Part shown: piece after piece, positions 7,222 to 40,972 of the stretch
How the letters are laid out: each line of letters begins with the position of its first letter
Position numbering within the stretch: position 1 is the first letter of the stretch
NCBI GenBank assembly: GCA_036936605.1
Contig: JAUPFV010000005.1
Span: forward strand, 7,028,345-7,092,344
DNA: 64,000 bases
Source: Limnanthes douglasii subsp. nivea
Lineage: Eukaryota; Streptophyta; Magnoliopsida; Brassicales; Limnanthaceae
Reading direction: 5' to 3'
Program-made: the position numbers and the translations under genes
The notes under the pieces: model-generated
Databases searched by the model: none
Seen by the model: the letters and a program-made list of their open reading frames with translations, nothing else
What the model was told of the DNA's origin: nothing

Positions 7222-7612
7222 TGATATAGAGTGAAACGCAGAGAAGCCTAAAGGGATAAAAACCCTAATTTTTTATTAATAAAAAACAACTCCCTTAAAA
7301 ATAGGGTTTGAGGCACTTTAAATAAGAATCGCTCAAATCCCTAATACAAAATATGGAAACAAAAATAAACGCAATAAAATAATATCACTTTAAATCTGAA
7401 TGTAATCAGATTTAATTTGATATCTTAAGTAGATCCTTAAAATATAAAAAATAAAATAAAACTAAAACTAAAACATTTAAATATTATAAAATATTTAAAT
7501 ATTATTTTGCAGAGGCCTTCCGCCTACATCATCCTTCCCCAACTGTCAATTCACAGCATTCTTCAGGTGATCGCCAGTCTTCATAAATTCAAGCGCTAAA
7601 CTATCTGCATCA
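7222..7612 (-). repeat. 3' LTR of the nested gypsy element
   Basis: 391 bp; on the minus strand begins TGATGCAGATAG and ends CTCTATATCA. Same length as the partner at 9776-10166, with about 8 substitutions. It holds the 3' end of the reading frame's downstream region and AT-rich sequence. Confidence 0.95.
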
Positions 7613-9744
7613 TTCCCGCCGGGGTCGAGAAGATTCGTCCTCGAATCATAACCCATCTCCTCATCAGAAGAGTCACCTGCATAAGGAATCAAATGCTTAA
7701 CATTAAAGACATCAGACGTACGAAGATGGCTAGGCAAACGCAGTCGATAAGCATTCGGGTTGATCGGCTCCACAATCTCCACCGGGCCAATCTTCCGGGC
7801 GGCCAGTTTGTTGTACTCACTAGCAGGGTACCGATTTTTGGTTAAAACTGCCCACACATAATCACCAACTTTGAACTGAACAGGACGACGATAAGAATCC
7901 GCCTCAGACTTATACTTGACGGTGCTCAAGACAAGCTGATTGTAAGTCGTCTGGTGGGTTTGGCGAATCTGCGATACAAGCTCCTCAGCAATTGTGTGAA
8001 CACGAATTTTACTGGGCAGGGCGACCAAGTCGACAGGACCCCGGGGCACAACACCATACATCACCTGGAAAGGACAAAGACCCGTCGAGCGGTGAAGGGC
8101 ATGATTGTGGGCAAACTCTGCCTGCGGTAGGCATTGATCCCATGCCTTCGGGTGATCTCCCACCAGGCTGGTGTCACGGTCAGAAACTGGAAACACATCT
8201 GTAAACACATCACTCCCAACAGGGCTGGCAATAGGAAACACATCGGCAAACACATTAGTCACAACAGAGCTAGCAATGGGAAACACATCTACAAACACAT
8301 CAGTCCCAACAGGGCTAGCAACGGGAAACACATCTGCAAACACATCAGTCCCAACATGGCCAGCAATAGGAAACACTTCTGCAAACACAGCAGTCCCAAC
8401 ATGGCCAGCAATAGGAAACACTTCTGTAAACACATCAGTCCCAACAGGGCTAGCAATAGGAAACACATCTGCAAACACATTAGTCACAACAGGGCTAGCA
8501 ACGGGAAACACATCTGCAAACACATCAGTCCCAACAGGGCTAGCAACGGGAAACACATCAAACACATCAGTCCCAACATGGCTAGCAATAGGAAACACCT
8601 CTGCAAACACATCAGTCCTAACATGGCTAGCAATAGGAAACACATCTGCAAACACATTAGTCACAACAAGACTAGCAACGGGAAACACATCTACAAACAC
8701 ATCAACTGTCTCAACCTCCGCCGTAACCTCCGCCATATCATCATCATATGTATCAAACTTTGGAGGACCATCAAGCACAATGGGATTCGGTTCAAACGCC
8801 TCCTGAGAGAAAAGACCCCTAGCACCCGCAGCATTTGGACACTCTACCTGACAATGCCCTAACTCGCCACAACCATAGCAGCGTAAATTGCTTGAAGAAC
8901 GGCTTGGCGCACCGCGCCCAGGAGGGATCGGATCAGGGGTTGGACGGGGAACTGGTTTGGACGCAAAAATCACTGAAGAAGCACCGGTCCGTATGCTGGT
9001 CTGGGTCCGGCGAGCCCACTGCTTTTCTGCCTGGAGGGCACGCCGATAGGCTCCGGAAACAGAGGACGGGTCGAACATATTAAGCAAATCTTGAAGCTGA
9101 CGCCGCAACCCACCAATATAGCGTGATACCCGCTGATGCGGCGACTCGGTCACATATGTGCGAGCCAGCAGCTGATAGAATTCTTCGGTATATTCATCCA
9201 CAGATCTGGTTCCCTTACGAAGATTCTGAAGTCGCTGGTAGAATTCCTGCTCGAAGTTTTAAGGAAGGAAAGCCTTGCGGATTTTTCTTTTGAACTTCTC
9301 CCAGCTGCGGACTTTATCTTTGCCTTAACGCGCGCGGTTCTTCTTCACCTGCTGCCACCAAGCCTGTGACCTACCGCGTAGGTGAATGGTGACTAAAGCG
9401 ACCCTTCTCTCCTCGGGAACTTCCTTGAAGTCCAGGACTTCTTCAATCTGGGATAACCAATCGATAAGTGCCTCTGCCTTAAGGTTGCCATCAATGTCCG
9501 TGATGTCTATCTTGAATCCAAGCTCCCAGCGGCGGGTGTGAGAAGTATTCTGGTCGATCCCCTCCCCAAAAGGGTTATCCATACCCTCACCCTCTGTTCC
9601 TTGTTGCCTGGCGTTCAGATCAGCCATCTGACGGGTTAGATCGGCTACTTGACGGTGTAGGTCAGCAACTTCACGATCATCTAAATCACTTGTATCTCTA
9701 GTCACTGCAGCGCCACCGCGACGGCTGGTTCTTCCTCGCACCAT
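7546..9744 (-). pseudogene. Gag / integrase C-terminal fusion ORF with in-frame minisatellite
   Basis: One frame runs from ATG at 9744 to the stop at 7546 and is broken only by two TAA codons (9327-9325 and 9261-9259). Downstream of these it is open for over 550 codons. Order: coiled-coil N-terminus with REVADLHRQVADL; retrotransposon Gag core (ALIDWLSQIEEVLDF ... RSQAWWQQVKK ... DEYTEEFYQLL); CX2CX4HX4C zinc knuckle CYGCGELGHCQVEC; acidic linker; 12 repeats of about 15 residues around DVFADVFPVASPVGT; then directly the Ty3/gypsy integrase C-terminal part (HPKAWDQCLPQAEFAHN ... FKVGDYVWAVL ... LPSHLRTSDVFNVKHL). The catalytic part of pol is deleted. The stops may be recent, since the rest of the frame is kept. 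The frame reaches about 65 bp into the 3' LTR. Confidence 0.9.
8165..8715 (-). repeat. 45-bp minisatellite, about 12 units, inside the ORF
   Basis: On the plus strand the unit reads ACATCAGTCCCAACAGGGCT then AGCAACGGGAAACACATCTGC with small changes; one unit lacks 3 bp and the last units are degraded. All length changes are multiples of 3, so the frame of the minus-strand ORF is kept. Each unit encodes about 15 residues. Two unit subtypes alternate (CAGGGCTAGCAACGGG and CATGGCCAGCAATAGG), which suggests expansion by unequal exchange of multi-unit blocks. Confidence 0.95.
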
Positions 9745-9759
9745 CTCGCAGGATTTCCT

Positions 9760-9772
9760 GGCTCTGATACCA
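9760..9772 (-). other. Primer binding site, perfect initiator-Met type
   Basis: Minus strand TGGTATCAGAGCC, three bases inside the 5' LTR edge at 9776. It fixes the element's orientation. Confidence 0.92.
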
Positions 9773-9775
9773 CTA

Positions 9776-10166
9776 TGATATAGAGTGAAACGCAGAGAAG
9801 CCTAAAGGGATAAAAACCCTAATTTTTTATTAATAAAAAATAACTCCTTTAAAAATAGGGTTTGAGGCACTTTAAATAAGAATCGCTCAAATCCCTAATA
9901 CAAAATATGGAAACAAAAATAAACGCAATAAAATAATATCACTTTAAATCTGAATGTAATCAGATTTAATTTGATATCTTAAATAGATCCTTAAAATATA
10001 AAAAATAAAATAAAACTAAAACTAAAACATTTAAATATTATAAAATATTTAAATATTATTTTGTAGAGGCCTTCCGCCTACATCATCCTTCCCCAACTGT
10101 CAATTCACCGTATTCTTCGGGTGATCGCTAGTCTTCATAAATTCAAGCGCTAAACTATCTGCATCA
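9776..10166 (-). repeat. 5' LTR of the nested gypsy element
   Basis: 391 bp, TG...CA ends, adjacent to the primer site at 9772-9760 and to the TAATG target duplication at 10167-10171. Confidence 0.95.
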
Positions 10167-10171
10167 TAATG

Positions 10172-11187
10172 GTACTGTGAAGATTAAGTTGAGTAGGTCT
10201 GTATGGGAACTAAAATATGTCAGACATATCCCTGATCTGAGAAAGAACTTAATCTCAGTAAGGCAGTTGGCTAGGGAAGACTACAATACGATCTTCTATG
10301 GTGAAAATTGGAAGATTTCAAAGTAAACAATGACAGTTGCTCGCGAAAAGAAGACTGGTACTCTTTACAAGATAGCAGAGACAAGATTTCAAAGTAAGAA
10401 ATGACAGTTGCTTGCGAAAATCCAAACGTATGGCACCAGAGGCTTAGCCACATGAGTGAGAAGGGTATGAAATTATGTACTCGAAGGGGGAGCTTCCAGG
10501 TCTTAAGTCAGTCGATATAGACATGTGCAAAGATTGCATACTTGGAAAACATAAAAGGGTCAGATTTCAGACGAGTGGCAGAACCCCAAAGAAAGAAATG
10601 CTGGAGCTTGTTCACTCTGACATTTGATGGCCAACAAATGTTTCATCTATAGGATAAAAATACTATTTTGTGACCTTTATCGATGATCATTCTCGAAAGG
10701 TATGGGTTTATTTTCTAAACCATAAATCTGAAGTGTTTGATATTTTTAGGAGATGGAAATCTATGGTTGAGAATGAGACAGATCTGAAGATTAAAAAGCT
10801 GAGAACCAATAATGGTGGTGAATATAAGAACATCAAATTCAAGAAGTTTTGTTATGAGCACGAGATCGGGATTGAGAGAACCGTGACATGTACGCTTCAA
10901 CACAATGGTATTTCCAAAAGTATGAACAAAATGTTGACAGAAAGATCCAGAAGAATTCATATACAGTCTGGTTTACCGAAGCAGTTCTGGGATGAAGCAA
11001 TTAACACATCGGCTTACCTGGTTAATCGAGGCCCATCGGTTCCTTTAGAACATAGAATACCAGAGGAGGTATGGAGTGGTAAGGATATAAAATTATCACA
11101 TCTAAGATTTTTTGGTTGTACATTATATGTTAATATAATTGATCAAGGCAGGAACATGCTTGATGTGAAATCAAAGAAATATTACTT
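10172..11187 (+). pseudogene. Copia pre-integrase and integrase core, decayed
   Basis: This continues the copia frame after the nested insertion. GAG-pre-integrase segments appear first (VRHIPDLRKNLISVRQLA; later a WHQRLSHMSEKGM-like stretch out of frame; CKDCILGKHKRV-like zinc-binding remains). The open piece at 10670-11221 holds the rve integrase core: FIDDHSRKVWVYFL (first catalytic Asp kept), then RTNNGGEY where the second catalytic Asp is Asn, and NGISKSMNKML where the usual catalytic Glu is Lys. SAYLVNRGPSVPL-like and LRFFGCTLYV blocks follow. The integrase is inactive by two of its three catalytic positions. The frame is cut at 11187 by the solo LTR and resumes at 11548 with DYGENDFGYR. 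Confidence 0.88.
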
Positions 11188-11192
11188 GATCG

Positions 11193-11542
11193 TGAAGAAT
11201 TCAGAAATCGCTCTAGGGTAATTTTGTGTTACGATAATCTTTTAGTGTTTAAAACAGTATTAGTTCTATGTTGAGGAGCCTTTTTAGAGAGAGAAAGAGA
11301 GAGCAAGATTAAGTACAGAGAGAAAGTAGTATTATATTCATCATGGAACCTATAAAGCGTGTGTGATCCTTTTATAGTACAATTATGGGCCCCACACGCT
11401 TTAATTCCCACTTATTACATCCTTGGTCCCTATATTTTTCCACTTTTTCATAATAACTATTTCTATTGTATTCTTCATAATTCTCCCCTAATAAAACTAC
11501 TTCTTTACAATTTTGCCATACGTCTTTTATTCTCCTTCATCA
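11193..11542 (-). mobile_element. Solo LTR of a Ty3/gypsy-type element
   Basis: 350 bp, TGAAGAATTC...CTTCATCA with TG...CA ends and a perfect 5 bp target duplication GATCG (11188-11192 and 11543-11547). Removing it and one duplication restores a continuous copia integrase frame, which proves the insertion. On the minus strand a TATA box CTATAAAAGG (about 11381-11372) precedes a CT-rich leader, so the LTR reads minus. The same promoter words appear in the LTR at 63517-63857, so the two are related families. Confidence 0.93.
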
Positions 11543-11547
11543 GATCG

Positions 11548-12660
11548 ACTATGGCGAAAATGACTTCGGTTATCGTGTTTGTGAGGAGGAAAACAGGAAG
11601 ATGATACGAAGCAGAGATGTGATCTTCAATAAAATAGTGATGTACAACAACATACATAAAACCGAAGCAAATGACTCAAAGCCCTATGAATCAGTATTTG
11701 AAGATATGAAGGGAGTCCCAGATAGTCAAGAAATAGAGTCGATCAGATTAGCCCCTCAGCAAGGAGAGTCAGTTGGACAGACTGATCGAAAATAGTCTGA
11801 CACCCTACAACAGACCGAGGAAGCTCTTGTTTTGAGAAGATCTTTCTGACACATGTTCCCAAGAGGAGATACTTGAACTATCTGTTACTTACCAATGGAT
11901 GGGAACCTGAATGCTATGATGAAGCTTGTCAGACCAGTGATGCGAACGAGTGGGAGTTTTCCATGAAAAAGGAGATGAAGTCTTTAATCTCAAATGGTAC
12001 ATGGGAACTAGCTGAGTTACCAATGGGTAAGAAGGCACTTCATAACAAATGGGTGTATCAGGTGAAAAATCAGGATGGTGGCTCTAAGAGATACAAAGCC
12101 CGACTAGTTGGCATAGGGTTCCAGCAAAAGGAAAGAAATGATTACACCGATATTTTTGCTCCAATTGTGAAGCTTAATGCTATTAGATCAGTGTTGAGTA
12201 TTTTTGCCATTGAAGACCTTTATCTTGAACAGTTAGACGTGAAGATTGCAACTCTTCACATGTACTTGTATGAGGAGATATACATGTATCAACGAGAATG
12301 TTTCTTAAAAGAAGGAATAGAAAACATGGTATACAGACTCAAGAAAAGTTTGTTTTGTCTAAAACAAGCTCCAAGACAGTGGTACAAGAAATTTGACGGT
12401 TTTATGCACAAAGTGTAATGCGGACCACAGTTGCTATTTTAAAAGATGTAAGTCCAGGTATAGCATTTTGCTACTCTATGTTGATGATATGTTAGTAGCA
12501 GGCTCATATATGGATGATATTAGAAGATTAAAAATAACAATTGTCAAAAGAATTTGACATTAAGAACTTGGGTCCGGCGAAGAAGGTTCTTGGAATGCAA
12601 ATCACAAGAGATAAACATAAAAAAAAATTGTAGTTATCTTAGTCAAAGTACATCGATCGC
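11548..12660 (+). pseudogene. Copia integrase tail and reverse transcriptase, decayed
   Basis: The frame resumes after the solo LTR with ENRKMIRSRDVIFNK, the end of integrase. The RT piece at 11873-12418 is copia type: NEWEFSMKKEMKSLISNGTWEL, then KWVYQVK, ARLVGIGFQQKERNDYTDIF (usual AKGY changed), LEQLDVKIATLHMYL and SLFCLKQAPRQWYKKFD. After a frameshift LLYVDDMLVAG is still present, so the catalytic YVDD motif is intact in sequence, but it is not joined in frame to the first half. Known role: copies the RNA into DNA in the particle. Confidence 0.9.
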
Positions 12661-13440
12661 GTTTTGAAGAGATTTAACATGGGTGATGCCAAGCCAGTTA
12701 GTACACCATTGGCAGGTCACTTTCATTGTTCGAAGGATCAATCCCCTAAGACGGAGGAAAAAAATACTTCATGGCTAAGGTTCCTTATGCCTCCGCTATT
12801 GGAAGTTTCATGTATGCAATGGTCTGTACGAGACCAGACATTAGTCATGCAGTGGAAGTTGTGAGTAGATTTATGTCAATCCCAGGGAAAATTCATTGGG
12901 AAGCTGTCAAATGGATTTTGAGGTACTCACTAGGTACCACATAAAAGTGTTTGTACTTTGGTAAGGGTGAGTTAAAGGTACAAGGATACATAGATGCAGA
13001 TTTTGGAGGTGAAGTTGATTACCGGAAAGCACCACCGGTTATATATTTATTGTTAGAACTCCAACTGTTAGTTGGGTGTCAAAGTTACAGAAAATTTCCA
13101 CTTTATCAACTACGAAGGCTGAGTATGTAGCATTGACCGAAGCCATTAAAGAGATGATATGGCTTCAAAGTTTGTCAATTGAGTCGGGATTCATGCAGAA
13201 GAAGAGTGTTCTGCATGGTGATAGTCTGAGTGCAATTCAGTTGGTGTAGAATTCAACATTTGATTCGAGAACCAAGCATATCAGTCTTCGTTATCATTTC
13301 ATCAGATCTTTATTGAAAGATGAGGTGTTAATATTGGAAAATATTCAAGGAAGCAAGAATCCAGCTGATATGTTGACAAAGACAGTAGCCATTGAAAAAC
13401 TGAAGTTGTGTTCAGCTTTAGTTGGTATACAAGAGTAACA
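12661..13440 (+). pseudogene. Copia RNase H and connection domain, decayed
   Basis: Pieces in shifting frames match the RT-RNase H linker (LKRFNMGDAKPVSTPL) and the copia RNase H. The C-terminal part reads SWVSKLQKISTLSTTKAEYV, then ALTEAIKEMIWLQ, and ends ENIQGSKNPADMLTKTV and KLKLCSALVGIQE before the stop at 13436-13438. The polypurine tract follows, as expected at the 3' end of copia pol. Confidence 0.9.
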
Positions 13441-13497
13441 AGACCAGAAAGATCTGTTGCATAGATCGAGGTGTGAGGACAGGTTGAAACCAGTCTT

Positions 13498-13509
13498 CAA
13501 GTGGGATAT
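13498..13509 (+). other. Polypurine tract of the copia element
   Basis: CAAGTGGGATAT directly before the 3' LTR start at 13510; the AAGTGGGA core is usual for plant copia elements. Confidence 0.75.
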
Positions 13510-13904
13510 TGTTATGTCAAATAAGATAACTAAGGCCGTGTGTAGTTTATTTTATCTTAACATGTTACCTTCCTCATGTTAGATGAAAAGACTGTGAAGC
13601 TGGTGATGATGATAGGACAGTGAAGATGATGCAAGTGTTAGACTCATTAAAGAGATATGCAGCAGGTTTGTTTATGCAACGAAAACGGTAGAGTCGCTAT
13701 GTCTTTCTAATAAAATCGATATGCAGCAGGTTCAGAGACGTAGGCATAATTTGTTGAACTCCGTTAACAATTATGTGCTGTTTTTTGTGTTCTTTTAATT
13801 CTTTTGATCTGATTGCAAGAAAATTGTGTATTTTCCAAAAACCCTTTTTTACTTTAAACCAATTAAAAAATGATTTGCCTAGAAATTAGTGTATTTCCCA
13901 AACA
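13510..13904 (+). repeat. 3' LTR of the copia element
   Basis: 395 bp, TGTTATGTCAAATAAG...GTATTTCCCAAACA. It pairs with 5657-6166 but lacks about 115 bp of it (after ACTCATTAAAGAGA). Confidence 0.9.
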
Positions 13905-14410
13905 TTGTATATTTACTATTAAGGGCACCTACCACTCAATTCAACGATCGGAGTTCATGTGTCGATTGAGCTGTTTTGGTTGTGGCATAAGTATTATATC
14001 TTCCATCACGCTTTTATCTTTTAGCATGATAATCTTATGGTTTAAACTCTCCTGTGATTATGTTATCTGTTGTGTTACATTAGAACTTATAAATTACATC
14101 TTTCTTGAGGGTGAAACTGTATGTCCTCTGTCGTTTGTGGGTAGTGGCCGTTTGTGATGCACTTATTTTAGCGCCGTCCGTCGTTTATCATGTATAAAAA
14201 AAACGTAACGTGAGAAATATCGGATCTTTTTGGTCTTTGGCCTCAACGATTATACAACTTGTGCTAACTAACCCATTAAATACATCTCAAACATCTTAAC
14301 GTGGTGTGCATTAGCTAAGAATCAAGTTCAACAAGACACATGACAATAGAATAAACCAACGTTCGGTATATCAAACAAGGATGTTCATTTCAGCATACAA
14401 CCCAAGAATA
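13905..14410. other. Non-coding stretch between copia element and ARF ORF
   Basis: No supported gene. The 13870-14157 plus frame is mostly the LTR end plus AT-rich sequence. The right half would be the 3' untranslated region of the minus-strand ARF ORF; no clear poly(A) signal stands out. Confidence 0.5.
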
Positions 14411-15091
14411 CTACAACTTTCTACCTTCTATCTTCTCCGGGTTATTTCGAGACCTTTGCTGTTCGATGATAATCTGTGCGCCAAAGAGAGTAAACTGACG
14501 TGTTTTGGTTTTTTCATCATCAGAATTTATCTCCAGATTTTGGCTAGAATTCTCAATTGATGATAAGCAAGAAACGTTTTCGTCAGGTCTTGCTGCCTCT
14601 GAAGTATCTTTTGAATCTTTCAACTGCACCAAATCAGATGCTCCATATTCATCATGCCCGGCTCCCTGTATGCCCATTGTCGGCGTAACGGGTTGATGGT
14701 TGTTTTCGGACAAAGACAGAGTTTCAACAAAAGAAGAGCCAGAATTCTCCGAATTTGTAGTAGAGTGGCATTCGGATCCTAAAACGCCACAGCTATCGGA
14801 CCTGACACCGTGGTTGTTGATTAGTACAGGGTTTAACCTGATTACGGCGTAGACTTCGTCGGTTTCAGGTTCGGGCAGAAATCTCAACGATTCAATGCGA
14901 CAGATGACTTCGGGCGGAACACAGAGATCGGACAAATCAATGTTGGCGGTCGTTTGCGCATGTTCAAGGTGACCTTGTGGGAAGTAGATAGAGGTGGAGT
15001 CAACTCTCAGAATCTGGACCATTGGTCCTTCGCATGTATGCCACAGTTGCCAATTTAAACACTTTTCTTCTTCCTCTTCCATTTTCTCCAT
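14411..15091 (-). CDS. Truncated class C auxin response factor lacking the B3 domain
   Basis: 226 codons, uninterrupted. The start is taken at ATG 15091 (context TTCCATGG); the open frame runs further upstream but only from a TTG. Residues 11-18 CLNWQLWH, 36-46 YFPQGHLEHAQ, 58-65 VPPEVICR and 74-87 PETDEVYAVIRLNP are the N-terminal part of ARF10/16/17. SSFVETLSLSEN (119-130) is where B3 would begin, but the protein jumps to TMGIQGAGHDEYG (138-150), the miR160-site region. It ends with RQFTLFGAQIIIEQQ (198-212), the LFG block near the C-terminus of ARF10/16. B3, the rest of the dimerisation domain and the middle region are missing. Full ARFs are nuclear DNA-binding regulators of auxin genes; this form cannot bind AuxRE by itself. 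It may be a pseudogene that happens to stay open, or a small regulator. Expression is unknown. Confidence 0.85.
   Translation of the reverse strand: MEKMEEEEEKCLNWQLWHTCEGPMVQILRVDSTSIYFPQGHLEHAQTTANIDLSDLCVPPEVICRIESLRFLPEPETDEVYAVIRLNPVLINNHGVRSDSCGVLGSECHSTTNSENSGSSFVETLSLSENNHQPVTPTMGIQGAGHDEYGASDLVQLKDSKDTSEAARPDENVSCLSSIENSSQNLEINSDDEKTKTRQFTLFGAQIIIEQQRSRNNPEKIEGRKL
14655..14675 (-). promoter_or_regulatory. miR160 target site in the ARF ORF
   Basis: The 21 bases match the complement of plant miR160 except the base at one end and one G:U wobble (the GCCAGGCA part reads GCCGGGCA). The GCATACAGGGAGCC core is perfect, including the cleavage position. It encodes residues 139-146 (GIQGAGH). 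ARF10, ARF16 and ARF17 are established miR160 targets. Confidence 0.85.
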
Positions 15092-15119
15092 GGAATAGAA
15101 GAAACAAGATAAAAAAATT

Positions 15120-15400
15120 TTGTATTGAAACAAAGAAAGCAAGAGTTAGTTTTTTTCTTTATGAAGCTCTGTAAAATTGAAGTGAAAAATGAAAACAAAT
15201 TTACAACAAATTTGTAAGTTTTGTTTTGAAAGAAGAAAGAAGATCAAGAGTTAGTTGTTCTTTATAAAGTTCCTGTAAATTAAAGTGAAAAATGAGAACA
15301 ATCAAGTTAACGATTTCTATTTTGGAAGAAGAAAGAATATCAAGAATCAGGTGTTCTTTATAAACTTCCGTAAATTGAAGTGAACACTGAAAGTGAGAAA
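15120..15400. repeat. Three tandem ~100-bp units upstream of the ARF ORF
   Basis: Three diverged direct units share GAAGAAAGAA, CAAGAGTTAG, TTCTTTATAAA, CTGTAAATT and AAGTGAAAAATGA in the same order, with a period near 97-100 bp. They lie in the promoter or leader of the minus-strand ARF ORF, 30-310 bp from its start. Each holds a TTTATAAAG-like word. Confidence 0.75.
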
Positions 15401-15479
15401 AGAGAAGAACGAACACAAACAAATATATATATATATCGACGTCTTTATTGTGTTTTTTTACTAAGGACATTTTATAATA

Positions 15480-16070
15480 ATCTAGGAATATACTCTCTTT
15501 TTTCTAAGCAAGAAATCAAATTAAAGGATCAATCATTTTAGATTTTGAGATAGCATATATATATATATATATATATATTTTTAAGATAGGATATATAATT
15601 CTTTTTAAGATAGCATAAAACTAAAATGAACTTTGGGATACCTAATCGTTCTAATTTCATTTGGTATTTTTGGTTTTATGAAATCTTCAACTGCACCTTT
15701 CTAGCTCCCGTAGTTTTTGACGGATTTGTTTTGGTTTATATTTACTATATTTGTCTGTTGTTTTTTTTTTTTCGTTTGCTAGATGATTTCCGTATTTTGA
15801 GAAGTAAGATCGGCTGGTTTCTTCATTTTTTAATTTCTTTAATTTAGTATTGTTTTTTTTATTTGTTTTCTTTTATATGTTGTTGTTTTTCATTGGGTCT
15901 TTTTGTGTTTGCATCCATTTACGTTACTTTGTGATTTTTGATTCATTGTGATCTTCGAATCATTGCTTTCGTTAGTTTATTTTGATATAATGTAGTTTAC
16001 GGTGTTTGTCGATTTCATACAAAGGTGTTTGACGATTTTAAGTTTAATGTAAGTTTCATTCGAAACACAT
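15480..16070. other. AT-rich intergenic DNA with (AT)n microsatellite
   Basis: No gene supported. A run of AT repeats lies at about 15555-15579, and T-rich sequence follows to 16070. Confidence 0.6.
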
Positions 16071-16123
16071 ATCACATATCCAATGTCAAAATTTGGCCTG
16101 ATTTCTCAAAAATAATGCATTTG

Positions 16124-16377
16124 TCGCAGGCCCAAAATGAGACGCTTTTTGGGCCTGGTCTCATTTTGGGCCTGCGACTGTAGGCCAAAAATTTGGCCCA
16201 TTTTTTCGGACAGAAAGCTTCTGTCGCAGGGCCAAAATGAGATGCCTTTTGGGCCTGGTCGCATTTTGGGCCTGCGACGGTAGGCCAAAAATTTGGCCCA
16301 TTATTTCGGACAGAAAGCTTCTGTCGCAGGCCCAAAATGAGACGCCTTTTTTGCCTGGTCTCATTTTGGGCCTGCGA
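16124..16377. repeat. Array of three palindromes at exact 100-bp spacing
   Basis: Each unit has a 19-bp inverted repeat: TCGCAGGCCCAAAATGAGA, about 16 bases, then TCTCATTTTGGGCCTGCGA. The left arms start at 16124, 16224 and 16324; the right arms at 16159, 16259 and 16359. One arm of unit 2 has single changes. Between units lies TAGGCCAAAAATTTGGCC (itself palindromic) and TTTTTTCGGACAGAAAGCTTCTG. The same 19-mer recurs at 18361-18449 on the far side of the PMD gene. Confidence 0.93.
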
Positions 16378-16673
16378 CGGTAGGCCAAATTTTTGGCCTA
16401 TTTTTTCAGACAGAAACTAGGCCTCGTTTATCAGACAGACTGCTTTTTTCACAGCCTTGGACATTTGTTATAATAAAATACCAGTATAAGGGAGAAAACA
16501 ACAAGTACATTTTGAAGAAGTTCAGGAAAACAACAAGTACATTATGAAGAAATAGAAGAAAACAACTAGTACACTTGAAGTGGTTACAAGAAGAGGAAAT
16601 CATTAAGTTATGACTTTTAACTTAAAGAAACATAAGAAAATAATTAAACACCGAAATGCCAACAACCAAATGC

Positions 16674-18277
16674 TCAATCATCGAAGTCATATCCCAAGTT
16701 GTCGTCAGAATGAACCCCCTCCTCCCTTTCCGCAATCCTATCCTGAAGATACGCAACCATATCCCTACTGATGTAGTCTACCACTGTCATGTTGAAGACG
16801 GCGGTCGCTTCTTGCTTAATTTTATACGGCTGAAACAACAAACGCTGGAGCGGTTGGCAAAAAATATACCTCTGCTTGATTTGCTCACGGTTGCGCACGA
16901 GGAGCCCTTTTGTTTGTAAACGGCCGTAGCCGTAGTACATCTTACAAAGCACCCGATCAAAAAAAGCATCACTTGTATCTTCCCCCATCTCTCGGCGGGC
17001 AATCCTCGCCGCCAGAAGCAAATGGTAGTCTTCATGGGGAGTAAACTCCATTTGTTCAACTTTCTAAGTTTGAGAAGATTATATGAATGTAGAGAGATCC
17101 CTGACTAAGGGCGTGATACAGCTGCGCTAAAACCAACTGACCCCAATTGTACATATGCAAACTTTGGTACTCGTTCACGAACTGGAGGTAATCTAATGGA
17201 ATGATGTTGCCGGTTTTGTTCGCACATATAGTGGTACCTAACAAATATAGTATGTAGGCACGGGTGGCATGATCTACACCCTCATCACTGATCCTCCTAT
17301 CACTATACTGAGAACTACTAAAAGTACTCCGCAGCCACCCTAGGTTCACACTACCAGCATTCCTAAGGTTTTTACTCAGCTCCGATTGTCGCACACCTAG
17401 CATGGCAGCATAAGTAGCAAGCCTCTCAACGTCAGAGTCAAAGGGTATAGCTGTGAAGGACCTACCTACAACCGGTAGTCCACTGATGACGTGGACATCG
17501 TACAAGGTGACTGTCATCTCCCCGAACGAGAAATGGAAAGAAGAAGTCTCCTCGTGCCACCGCTCTAAGAATGCCTCCACCAAATGGAGGTTCGTATGCC
17601 AGCGGGTGAGTGCATCGACGAGTGGACCGAATATAGTATCCATCACCCTTGCCCGTACCCTGTTCTGCTTTGTAATGTCCCATCTCCGGAGACTGTCATA
17701 CATAGCGAAGCATCGCAGGGTGACCATATCCTGCAATATGTATAAAATATGTAAATTCGTAAAAAAATAATAATTATAAACATGTGTATCGAACACGTAA
17801 GAAAATGATAAAACAGTATAAAGGTGTAGCACTTACGTCTCCGTGATAGACGCTGTAAGCCTCGTGCACGGTGTAATCCGAGAAAAGTCCCGGAACATGC
17901 GACAGCACGGAATAAAAATCAAGATCCTCACCCTCAGGTGAGTGGGATGCTGCCTCTGGCGCGTGAGGTGCAGCGGCCTCTGTATGGTCCGGTACATGAG
18001 ATGCATCAGCCTCCATATACTACGGTGCATATACATCGTCATCGTACTCATCGTCAAGGGGATGCGACGTAGAAGCTGCCCCTGTGCTAGCATCAACAGG
18101 AGTAGGAATATACTCGTTGTGACGACGGAGACGTCGTCTACTACGTGTACCGGGAACGTGTCCCTCGCTGGTACCAGCCTCCTCCGCCTCCGACCGCGCT
18201 CTAGCCGCCACTTCTGCCTCCTCCTCCGCCCTAAGTTTCTTGAACGTATTTTTTGCTTTAATCTTGTATCGTACCAT
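16674..18277 (-). pseudogene. Plant mobile domain (PMD) protein gene, transposon-type
   Basis: Minus-strand gene. Exon 2 starts at ATG 18277 (MVRYKIKAKN, then an Arg/Glu-rich and acidic N-terminus) and ends at 17837 before a GTAAGT donor; the intron 17836-17731 ends TTGCAG and is phase 0. Exon 3 (17730-17056) carries the PMD: FLERWHEETSSFHFSFGEM, TVTLYDVHVISGLPVVG, and VDHATRAYILYLLGTTIC, then NWGQLVLAQLYHALSQG. The domain then stops early where family members continue. A C-terminal open piece (17051-16674, MEFTPHEDYHLLLAAR...) follows in another frame. One TAG interrupts exon 2 after DVYAP. PMD genes occur in host loci and inside DNA transposons and retroelements. The flanking palindrome arrays favour a transposon gene here. 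Molecular function of PMD is not settled. Confidence 0.82.
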
Positions 18278-18278
18278 C

Positions 18279-18767
18279 CTGTAAACACAATGCAAAAAAA
18301 TATGTATTAGTTGCAAAACAAGAAATAAAAAATAAAAAAAAAAACCAACTTTGGGCCTCGTCGCAGGCCCAAAATGAGACAACATTTGGGCCTCAACGCA
18401 GGCCCAAAATGAGACTGCATTTGGGCCTCGTCTCATTTTGGGCCTGCGACGAGGCCCCGTCTTCATCGCAAATCAGGGCTGCGATGAAGACGATTTTGGT
18501 AGCACGCTGTTCGTGCTACCAGCAGCGAACACGACCCCAAAACGAAACTCCACCAAATAACCCTCATTTCTAACAAAATCAAGCACCAAAACATAGATCC
18601 TACCAATACTAACAACAATACAACACTAATCTAACAAAACAACACCTAAAATCATACAAAAATCGAACTTTTGAAATCGAAACCAAAAAAACTAAAAAAC
18701 CTAGATTCGACAGTTTAGACCAAATGAAATCAAAAACAAATTACACCATGATGTTTGTATCGTTTAC
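18279..18767 (-). other. Predicted 5'-UTR intron of the PMD gene
   Basis: Minus strand: exon 1 ends TTTAAAG before GTAAAC (donor at 18767); the acceptor is TTGTGTTTACAG, one base before the ATG at 18277. The palindromes of 18354-18520 lie inside this intron. This is a splice prediction by eye only. Confidence 0.55.
18354..18520. repeat. Three stacked perfect inverted repeats
   Basis: First: 26-bp arms 18354-18379 and 18431-18456 (GGCCTCGTCGCAGGCCCAAA ATGAGA and its complement), with one more copy of the 19-mer core in the spacer. Second: 13-bp arms CGTCTTCATCGCA (18458-18470) and 18480-18492. Third: 9-bp arms GGTAGCACG (18498-18506) and CGTGCTACC (18512-18520) with a 5-base loop. All are perfect. 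Confidence 0.93.
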
Positions 18768-18894
18768 CTTTAAATTTTCTTCACTTCAGATTCTTCAAAA
18801 ATCGAGTTTTTGAAATGGATGCTCCGGGTGCTTGAGAGGTTTCTAGAGAGAGAGAGAAAGAGAGGAAAAAAGTGGTGAAAGATCTATCAAAACA

Positions 18895-18902
18895 CTTTTA
18901 TA
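18895..18902 (-). promoter_or_regulatory. TATA box of the PMD gene
   Basis: Minus strand CTATAAAAG, about 30 bases before a CT-rich probable transcript start near 18865-18850 (TTTCTCTCTCTC). About 100 bases of leader then reach the predicted donor at 18767. Confidence 0.5.
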
Positions 18903-18909
18903 GCTAGGT

Positions 18910-21411
18910 TTTCTAAAAAGGGTAAAATGGTCAAAATTTAGGTGCGAGATCTATCAATTAGGTATAAGATCTAGCGGTTTAAGATCTATAAAAATGTGTA
19001 TTATTTCTAGCCTGGCCCTTTTAAAAACTCTATTTTGGTTCTTTATATTTTTTTCAACTCTTTGTTTTTATGCTATCCCTCCGGGTTTGCTCTAGGTACA
19101 TGTACGGATATTTTTTATTTTCGTTAATGCATTTATTTAAACCAAAACAAAAGATGTAAAAGTTTGAAAAAGTATTTACCAAAGAAAATTAAAGGTAACC
19201 TCCAACAACTGGATATAATGTTCAATAAAGAGAGATCGAACCATGAGACATTAGAATCTGTAACGATTAATAAGTAAAGGTTAGTTGAGTCCTGGATTTT
19301 TCAGTTTTGAAATCTGTAGCGAACATAAAAAAGAATATGGTGTAATATTACCGAAGTGAGATAATGAATGTTTATGAAACTTGTAGCGTTTTTCTCCAAT
19401 CTAAAATGGTAACCTATGTAACATAATCCAAAACTCTAGGGGTGGTCTGGACTAAATGAGATAAGAGTCTAAGGACTAACCTCTTGCAACCAGGTGGGAA
19501 AATCCGAGACAGAGAGAAGAGCAAAGTTTTGCACTAGTGGTCTTCTATATAAGACGAGTAAAATGAGCACTACGCTAAGAGTTGAGTTATAACCCTTAAT
19601 AGATGAGTTTGTCTCTAGTAGTTAGCTTATTTCGTATCTCCAACGAGGGAATAAAGAATTCTCTAGAGATGTTGGGTTTCTTTCATATTAGATTGGCCCA
19701 GAGAACATGAGTGGCCGAAATGTGTAATGCATGATAAGTATTGCTAATTGTAAAGGTCTTACTTATTTAGTTGGCCCATCAGATTTTAACACCTCCGGTT
19801 CGAGCGAGCCAGAATGAGATTAATACACTTAATGATTTCTTAGAGATGTAAGTGGTGGTTTTTTCTACCATGACGAAATTACGTGGGCCAATTCTAAGAT
19901 TCGTATGAAATGATATCTGCAAGTTTGTTATTGTTATGTATACAAGAATGACGAATAATAAAATAACTGTACTTGTCCACAATAGAGTTAGAAAAGAGTT
20001 AGAGATCATACCAGAGGGAGGTGGAGCTATTGTTTCCGATTTCCAATTTTGAGATTATAGTGGTAGTAGATTTTAAGTTGAGGACTTTTCTTCATCCCTA
20101 CTATGGGAGGAACCACCTAGTAAGTTCCAAAAGTTTATTTGCTTAAGTTTCTAAAAAAAATCTAGTTACACTAAATTGAAGTGGACTTTCCACTCAAGAT
20201 AGACCAAAAGTGTTTGAGGGTGTTTTCCTGATTGCAGACCTTAAGGTCTATAATCCCAACACCACCCTCATATGCGGGAAAAATAAACTCTAATTCACGT
20301 TATCTTAGTACCAAATATTTTTATGTTTGGGGCATACCATATGAATCATCACAGTAGCTGAAAAAAATCATTGAGGACTTTAACATGGAGAATAAACATA
20401 GAGAACTAATACACATGGCCATCAAATAAGACAGATTTTATAAGTTTGAGCCTCTAATATAAGAGAAAAACTTGGAGGTCTAGGAGTAAACGTGGGGTGT
20501 GACTTTATCAAAAAAATGGTCTACAATCATTGTTTAAGAGATGAGTTGTGATTAAGAGAACACCAAGGTAACTATTGGGTAGGTACCAACCTCGAAGCCT
20601 ATGAGAGAGGTTATGTTATGGAGAACGAGTTTACATTATCTCGAGAGAAAAAAAGTTTCCTCTTCCTCGATTTAATGTTAAGGCCTGATGGGGAGGCGAT
20701 TTATGAAAGTCATTCTTTTATCAAGTTTATGGATTTGATGTCAACACGACTGCAAATTATAAGGTCGTTTATGAAGAAGAAGTTTATGATTTAGAGTTTG
20801 TTACACTTCCAATAAAATTATCTAAGTGAATTATTGTTAATATTTAAAGAGTAAGAGAGGTGGATAGATATTGGATGATCCAGGATATCGTCATCAAGGG
20901 GAGAAGATGAGAATTCCATGGTGAAAAACACATCAAGAAGAAGGTGTCAACAGACGTTATGAAAAGATCTCATGAGATTGAATTTAAGACCCTTTCATGT
21001 TTGGTTTTTAGACACTTAGAAGTTACTAGGACAAAATAATATTATCGAAGATATTTTTACCAATGATAAACATAGATTGAGAGAAGATAATAAAGAAGAA
21101 TAGAGAGTCATTCATCTTATATGGTAGGATTTTAGTGATAATGTTTTAAATAACATTGCAGCACACTATTGGTCTAAACGTATAGAGAGATTTTTATTCC
21201 AACTCGAACCCATATGGTTATTAGCAAAGAAATGATCGATGAATTTATATAGGTTGTCGCCTATAATAAACTATGAAAAAACTAGATTTGTAACCATTTG
21301 GCTCGGGGGATTTGTTACTATAAATAATGAAATTAGTCTTTTTATCTCTTCGACTGAGATGGGGTGGATCATATTGGACTTTTCGGAGGGGATAAGTTTG
21401 GTGGTCATGAG
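18910..21411. other. 2.5 kb without recognisable gene
   Basis: AT-rich, with stops in all frames every few dozen codons (longest open pieces under 80 codons). No LTR ends, terminal inverted repeats or known protein words were found. It reads like old, heavily mutated repeat DNA, but I cannot assign a family. Confidence 0.5.
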
Positions 21412-40227: not shown

Positions 40228-40972
40228 ATAGGACGATGATACGAATGGGCTGTGAAGGAAAATTCTTATTCTTATTCTATTCAAACATTTTCTCAAAAAA
40301 GTTGACAGCACCATCAGATGGTAATCGTGTATCATATATAATCATCATCTGGATTTATAACTTCTACAACTCTTTGGAAGAACAATTTATTTGCTGCCAC
40401 ATAAGCTTCCCATAGAGAAAGGTCAAACCTTGCTCCTTGCTCTACGGAGTAGGTCAACATGTAATGAAAAAGTGACCACAGTTGAGTAGGGAAACATGTA
40501 ATGAAAAAATAGCCACAGTTGAGTCTTGCAGAAACCATCATAGAATTTGGCTTGCAACTCTGGAGGCAAAAAGGTAGGTACACAGTTGAATTTATCCAAT
40601 AATATCTGAGCTACGTCATCCTGCTCAATTGGGTCAACATCAACATTCAGCGAACCGACATATAAAACCTTCATATCGTCTGGGAAACCATCTTTAAACA
40701 GGGAATCCTCGTTCCAACTATAAATCCAGCCTTTATTATCTGTTCGTTTCTCCGCTCTCAAAGGAAGAAAATTAGCCACAACGATCACTCGATCGGACGT
40801 AACAGAGGATGGGTTATCAGAAGATAACGCTAAATTCCTTTTCGTCATCAAGCTCAAACACCTTACCTGGTACTGTCATTACCCTTGGAAGGCGCTTCTG
40901 CGGTTCCCTACCCGATACAGGAAAATTTCCAGATGCCAAGTCTAATAGATTGATATAAGATCTTGATATCAT
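40228..40972 (-). pseudogene. Class II trehalose-6-phosphate synthase fragment (5' exon)
   Basis: Minus strand, starting at ATG 40972: SRSYINLLDLASGNFPVSG, KRLPRVMTVPG, then after a 1-base shift SSDNPSSVTSDRVIVVANFLP, EDDVAQILLDKFN-like text QDDVAQILLDKFNCVPTFLP, HYM, FDLSLWEAYVAANKLFFQRV and VINPDDDY. After another shift it ends IHDYHLMVLSTFLRKCLNRI and IFLHSPF. This is the N-terminal extension and the start of the glycosyltransferase-20 domain of TPS5-11 type proteins. About 240 of about 850 residues are present. A 37-bp internal tandem duplication (CAACTGTGG...CCCTACT) lies at about 40457-40530. Class II TPS proteins are regulatory in trehalose-6-phosphate signalling. At least three frameshifts make this a pseudogene. 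Confidence 0.92.

Follow-up and report, generated by a model that had tools for sequence, protein, structure and literature searches.

A probable class C ARF duplicate in Limnanthes douglasii with an internal deletion and a retained miR160 site

As described in the available excerpts of the respective reports, functional ARFs that lack the DNA-binding domain are found in bryophytes and lycophytes, where these proteins, known as ncARF or clade D, derive from class A (PMC5873896, PMC10299833). Reduced ARFs of other kinds are also described in the excerpts at hand: these include 96 truncated ARF syntelogs that lack the B3 and/or the Auxin-response domain (PMC7226935), Arabidopsis ARF23, which has been called a truncated pseudogene (PMC11208147), and individual family members without B3, namely potato StARF18c (PMC6370904), cherry PavARF3 (PMC8584427) and safflower CtARF18 (PMC12028013). 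At the level of RNA, lncRNAs of rice are presented, in the part of the report available, as natural miR160 decoys (PMC4253996). Our search of the open-access literature turned up neither a class C frame that lacks B3 and carries its miR160 site nor a paper on the exon structure of class C ARFs. A class C ARF converted into a protein free of DNA binding while still under miR160 would, to our knowledge, be the first of its kind, provided that it is expressed and selected.

Here we analyze an open reading frame of this type in a 64-kb stretch of DNA from Limnanthes douglasii subsp. nivea (hereinafter, the window). The frame occupies positions 14411-15091 of the minus strand, with the ATG at 15091, 226 codons and the stop codon at 14411-14413; the original prediction of a 226-codon open frame in this interval is thus borne out, with the strand, which it had omitted, now specified. 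Read on the plus strand, the same interval is interrupted by stops. An in-frame TTG is located upstream of the ATG, at 15142, and it is there that the list of open reading frames starts the frame. The start codon is preserved together with its EKCL context, and the 226 codons contain no frameshift, stop or lost start, the disabling lesions by which a pseudogene would be recognized. The immediate surroundings are indeed full of stops, as had been claimed, with 17-25 in each of the three minus-strand frames within 1 kb on either side. Given that ATG frames of at least 226 codons appeared in 3 of 60 random 64-kb sequences that preserve the dinucleotide make-up of the frame, length alone is weak evidence, and it is homology that establishes the frame as a real ARF derivative. 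Directly upstream of the start codon, on the leader or promoter side of the frame, there is a tandem repeat with a 96-bp unit (15132-15392; 2.6 copies, 77% match).

In a protein search with a query padded to let full-length proteins qualify, 192 of the 1859 candidate proteins matched the frame at E<=1e-3, with the best E-value of 1.6e-30. Among these, the 120 matches listed all carry ARF annotations or ARF domains and are 36-53% identical to the frame over 37-58% of its length. The DNA-binding-domain chain of Arabidopsis ARF1, taken from the crystal sequence, matches residues 13-99 (E 7.4e-13), and no Pfam family matched the frame even at E 1. Together with the alignment of the DD1 and middle-region blocks, the best match upholds the proposed origin from a class C ARF of the ARF10/16/18 type.

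The product of the frame can be divided into several blocks, all encoded on the minus strand. The DD1 block, CLNWQLWH...ETDEVYAVIRLNPV, is delineated by the ARF1 match and by alignment to relatives, and spans residues 11-89 (14825-15061). Alignment to relatives also identifies a stub of the beginning of B3 at residues 119-132 (14696-14737), which is degenerate, reading SSFVETLSLSENNH in the frame versus SSFAKTLTQSDANN in the relatives. Directly after this stub, the ARF core, which comprises roughly 300 residues in full-length relatives, is absent, and the frame proceeds to the block of the miR160 target site (14655-14675), which reads MGIQGAGH, and then to a block of the middle region with the pattern NVSCL...LFG...EQQ (DENVSC...TLFGAQIIIEQQRS; residues 170-214, 14450-14584; profile E 3e-15), hereinafter the C block. 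The frame ends with a short tail, RNNPEKIEGRKL, followed by the stop (14411-14449), in the place where full-length class C ARFs have PB1.

The contention that the B3 domain had been removed holds for nearly all of this domain; the removal is not complete to the last residue, given that about 14 residues at its start are still present. The loss also extends beyond B3: DD2 and PB1, on which the original prediction was silent, are absent as well because tblastn with 123 ARF proteins detected no other ARF pieces in the 64-kb window at E<0.01 (best value elsewhere, 0.035). In the same search, the missing B3 or PB1 was not found elsewhere in the window at this threshold. Of the domains of a class C ARF that works as a transcription factor, B3 (PF02362) is thus reduced to the 14-residue stub, and neither Auxin_resp/DD2 (PF06507) nor PB1 is present. 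The predicted product cannot bind DNA in the way an ARF does.

The anticipated miR160 site was confirmed at 14655-14675, where 19 of the 21 bases match what we take to be the mature miR160 sequence; no second miR160-like site was found at up to three mismatches, and none of 100 shuffles yielded one. The two departures are a G:U pair at miRNA position 5 and, at position 21, a mismatch, so that pairing runs uninterrupted through positions 1-20, including 10/11, with no bulge, and the computed duplex energy is -44.5 kcal/mol compared to -45.4 kcal/mol for a perfect target. The encoded peptide is GIQGAGH; the arginine codon of GIQGAR is now one for glycine, a replacement that costs the duplex a single wobble. 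In a local fold, the site is somewhat less accessible than the bases around it (mean probability of being unpaired, 0.32 versus 0.44), and the RNA fold in this region is ordinary (z 1.26). An endogenous target mimic is defined by a central bulge that prevents slicing, and the continuous pairing at positions 1-20 leaves no such bulge here. Because the central bulge is missing and positions 10/11 pair, slicing rather than sponging is to be expected, and the transcript, if made, should be a miR160 slicing target like others. The idea that the transcript absorbs miR160 accordingly fits poorly with a site so unlike the classical non-cleavable mimic.

Modeling with AlphaFold2 from an alignment of the frame and 34 relatives gave a mean pLDDT of 52 and a pTM of 0.29, with a hairpin at approximately residues 61-90 as the only confident element and low confidence for most of DD1. 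For an intact relative (P0126) modeled with the same 35 rows, the pTM is 0.73 and DD1 scores 85-95, a contrast to which the larger divergence of the frame from these rows may contribute. Because DD2 and PB1 are absent, we see no basis for dimerization of the ARF type. The motif in the retained C block is TLFG, which differs from RLFGI, the TPL-binding motif of ARF2, and ARF16 is reported, in the available part of the source, to be without any known repressive motif (PMC5871684). Interference of the protein with ARF partners, as originally envisaged, thus finds little to build on, with DD2 and PB1 gone, DD1 mostly modeled at low confidence and TLFG in place of RLFGI.

The frame is strongly diverged. 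In a tree of the frame and 55 of the 120 fetched full-length relatives, it forms the longest of the 56 branches (1.05, compared to 0.56 for the next longest and a median of 0.15) and stands alone on that branch, so that the tree provides no placement among plant families. Across the 120 relatives, 72 sites are conserved at 90% or more, and the frame departs from the consensus at 22 of these. DD1 keeps 27 of its 39 conserved sites, the miR160 block 7 of 9, the C block 10 of 11 and the B3 stub 6 of 13. Losses are thus heaviest in the stub, at 7 of 13 conserved residues; this would fit with a B3 that was by then without a role, but the difference from the other blocks is not significant at 0.05 (Fisher p 0.09). 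The low identity to the listed relatives, the longest branch and the losses in the stub all argue against youth, which had been offered as one reason for the intact frame.

The other reason that had been offered, selection, was addressed with a profile model that allows for extra neutral drift. Under three pseudocounts, the best fit lies at 0.075 (interval 0.03-0.125), 0.03 (0-0.075) or 0 (0-0.04) substitutions per site, and because the estimate changes with this setting, it decides nothing on selection. At a drift of 0.075, the probability that no stop arises is 0.12, or 0.004 if indels are assumed to contribute 10%; at 0.03, the respective values are 0.43 and 0.11. Depending on the pseudocount, then, the open frame is strongly surprising, mildly surprising or unsurprising, and the intact frame that had been taken as a hint of selection yields no verdict. 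The linker between DD1 and B3 was omitted from the three-pseudocount fit because its alignment is unreliable; with the linker included, the frame would look more drifted, and an earlier profile fit that did include it gave a drift of 0.40 (interval 0.25-0.6) for the linker together with the B3 stub. Relaxed constraint, as suggested by the first protein-profile fit, was abandoned when the later fit revealed the dependence on pseudocounts. The drift estimate for the C block is 0-0.02, and this block looks constrained. None of the 120 relatives needs drift in DD1, but these proteins have close kin in the set; a stricter leave-one-out control retains only 4 of the 120 relatives, all of them at drift 0, which makes this control weak.

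The neighborhood of the frame consists of transposable-element genes. An integrase and a reverse transcriptase of the Copia type are encoded at 10670-12418, and a MULE-like element at 16088-18487 includes, on the minus strand, an open reading frame (17056-17832) whose product matches the plant mobile domain (E 9e-32 to PF10536); Gypsy-type genes occur further on from this element. The open reading frame of the MULE-like element is bracketed by tandem repeats with a 100-bp unit at 16122-16416 on one side and, at 18346-18487 on the other, by inverted copies of the core of these repeats. A 551-codon frame at 7546-9201 encodes an SH3_Tf2-1 domain, of the Gypsy type, together with an extended in-frame repeat that follows the pattern DVFPVASPVGTDVFADVFPIAS. 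A second fragment of a host gene in the window is a 144-codon frame at 40423-40857 that matches glycosyltransferase family 20, of the trehalose-phosphate synthase type, over profile residues 2-108 only. Capture of the ARF-like sequence by a Pack-MULE was considered and rejected: the MULE-like element lies outside the frame, and no convincing terminal repeats enclose the latter. Among the longest 25 of 46 inverted pairs in 13000-21000, the only one that encloses the frame is an AT-rich 37-nt pair at 73%. An LTR element around the frame was likewise rejected, given that 9000-14400 contains no repeat pair of LTR length. As regards a processed retrocopy, no run of A is apparent by eye beyond the stop on the minus strand, and we could place no intron position within the retained pieces. 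Scans of the window for Rfam families and tRNAs returned nothing.

A search with the frame alone for short proteins yielded three matches, each with a B3 domain. A profile built from the frame and nine composites matched 865 of 3277 candidates, of which 120 were listed. Among 122 fetched short proteins, the N-terminal block is present in all 122 and the C block in one, a 189-residue hypothetical protein without B3 or DD2 from Anisodus acutangulus of the Solanaceae (K7X08_031981, here P0124); when BLAST was used to require both blocks, the count was 0 of 122, and this protein, missed in that way, was recovered by the profile criterion. As in the Limnanthes frame, a class C N-terminal block is joined in this protein to the C block without B3 or DD2, and the protein ends at LFG. 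It differs in its junction, ...GGFSVPR/HAQFG..., which leaves neither GIQGA nor the larger part of the miR160 site, and in its start, which falls within DD1; identity to the frame is 34%. Because the junction differs and the miR160 site is mostly missing, the Anisodus protein is either an independent case or the product of an annotated intron rather than an orthologue. An annotated intron may account for the join, with AGG-TAC and GCC-AGG providing an AG/GT donor and an AG acceptor, both deduced from the usual codons of the protein, not from DNA. The 122 fetched short proteins thus include no orthologous short copy of the kind that the original prediction had proposed to look for in related species.

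Taken together, these observations suggest, with a probability of roughly 0.6, that the frame is an internally deleted, probably non-functional and decaying duplicate of a class C ARF. In the history that we infer, a class C ARF gene would have been duplicated, with the copy now lying in a repeat-rich region of an angiosperm nuclear genome. A deletion that preserved the frame would have removed the DNA between B3 and the miR160 site, starting a short way into B3 and stopping close to the site; before or after this event, PB1 would have been lost with the 3' end. The copy, with no function of its own, would be decaying, its frame open by chance or since the deletion is not very old. The case for such a relic comes from the loss of functional domains and not from a stop or frameshift. 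It is favored by the homology of both ends, combined with the absence of other ARF pieces from the window; by the 36-53% identity to the 120 listed relatives, the longest branch and the 22 of 72 conserved sites changed; by a model with a single confident hairpin set against the pTM of 0.73 of the intact relative; and by the transposable-element surroundings. Precedents exist among truncated ARFs, in the excerpts available (PMC7226935, PMC11208147). Against it stand the intact frame, with the chance of 0.12, or 0.004 with 10% indels, if all divergence were neutral at 0.075, the nearly complete conservation of the C block, the start in its EKCL context, the competent miR160 site, the lack of any disabling lesion and a Fisher p of 0.09 that is not significant. 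If the relic reading is correct, the locus adds one more to the truncated ARF copies already described, with a tidy junction that by chance spares the miR160 site.

Several of these same features would be expected of a short ARF-like protein kept by selection, one that is unstructured and nuclear, carries the class C middle-region block, is restrained by miR160 and competes for the binders of that block. The frame is intact despite strong divergence, 10 of the 11 conserved sites of the C block are kept, the native start and the miR160 site are retained, and under the stricter profile settings, with a drift of 0.075, intactness by chance is unlikely; ncARF and clade D also provide, in the excerpts seen, a precedent for ARFs that lack the DNA-binding domain (PMC5873896, PMC10299833). 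Nevertheless, we consider such a protein unlikely: the argument from drift falls away once looser pseudocounts are used, which call for none; ncARF acts, as far as the excerpts go, with PB1, which the frame lacks; the retained block has no known partner, and the available text on ARF16 gives it no known repressive motif (PMC5871684); and the searches produced no orthologous short copy, only three matches that bear B3 and, among the 122 fetched proteins, one that is differently joined. A bolder version, which we rate as quite doubtful, is that the frame represents a seed-plant class C counterpart of ncARF, without B3 and PB1, controlled by miR160 and selected for the middle-region block, with the Anisodus protein as an independent case. 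Were this so, it would constitute a new arm of the miR160/ARF module that is free of DNA binding; if the frame is expressed and selected, the class C middle region could be tested apart from DNA binding.

A transcript that buffers miR160, titrating it so that full-length ARF10/16 targets reach higher levels, would fit with the well-paired site (-44.5 versus -45.4 kcal/mol) and with the natural lncRNA decoys known, from the part of the report available, in rice (PMC4253996). This buffering role appears improbable given that pairing runs through 10/11, so that the transcript would be sliced and the miRNA released, that the site is less open than its surroundings, and that a single site would demand high transcript levels. 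The combination of an intact frame with strong divergence is accounted for at once if the copy is young, the deletion is recent and the affected class C paralogue had been evolving fast and diverging while it still carried B3, and diverged ARF duplicates such as ARF13 of the Arabidopsis cluster are known from the available excerpt (PMC11208147). We are inclined to doubt this scenario strongly because long-branch relatives among the 120 listed (sunflower, Rutidosis, Cucumis) still keep TLTQSDANN, and the loss of 7 of 13 such residues in the stub would be unusual if the B3 of the parent was functional. Finally, it is hard to credit at all that the assembly is at fault and has omitted the B3 segment of an ordinary ARF gene, given that a degenerate B3 stub, a missing PB1 and divergence throughout do not fit one collapsed segment.

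The preferred reading, that of a decaying duplicate, can be set against the systems described to date. With ncARF and clade D, the frame shares derivation from an ARF and the absence of the DNA-binding domain; in the excerpts available, these proteins belong to class A, keep PB1 and are absent from seed plants, whereas the frame has its best matches in class C and the window contains no PB1. The truncated syntelogs and ARF23 resemble it in the loss of B3 and/or the Auxin-response domain, and neither this join nor a retained miR160 site is described in the available portions of the reports on them. StARF18c, PavARF3 and CtARF18 are likewise ARFs annotated without B3 and apparently are not short frames of the miR160 class; in the excerpts, StARF18c belongs to the ARF1/2/3/4/18 clade (PMC6370904) and CtARF18 keeps the Auxin_resp and AUX_IAA domains (PMC12028013). 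The rice decoys have a stretch that pairs with miR160 (PMC4253996) and, as presented in the available text, are non-coding target mimics, unlike the site in the frame, which is coding, continuously paired and cleavable. Class C ARFs of the ARF10/16/18 type, themselves targets of miR160, differ from the frame in that the full-length proteins possess the B3 core, DD2/Auxin_resp and PB1, none of which it has; the DD1 block, the GIQGA-coding miR160 site and the NVSCL...LFG...EQQ block are common to both and follow in the same order.
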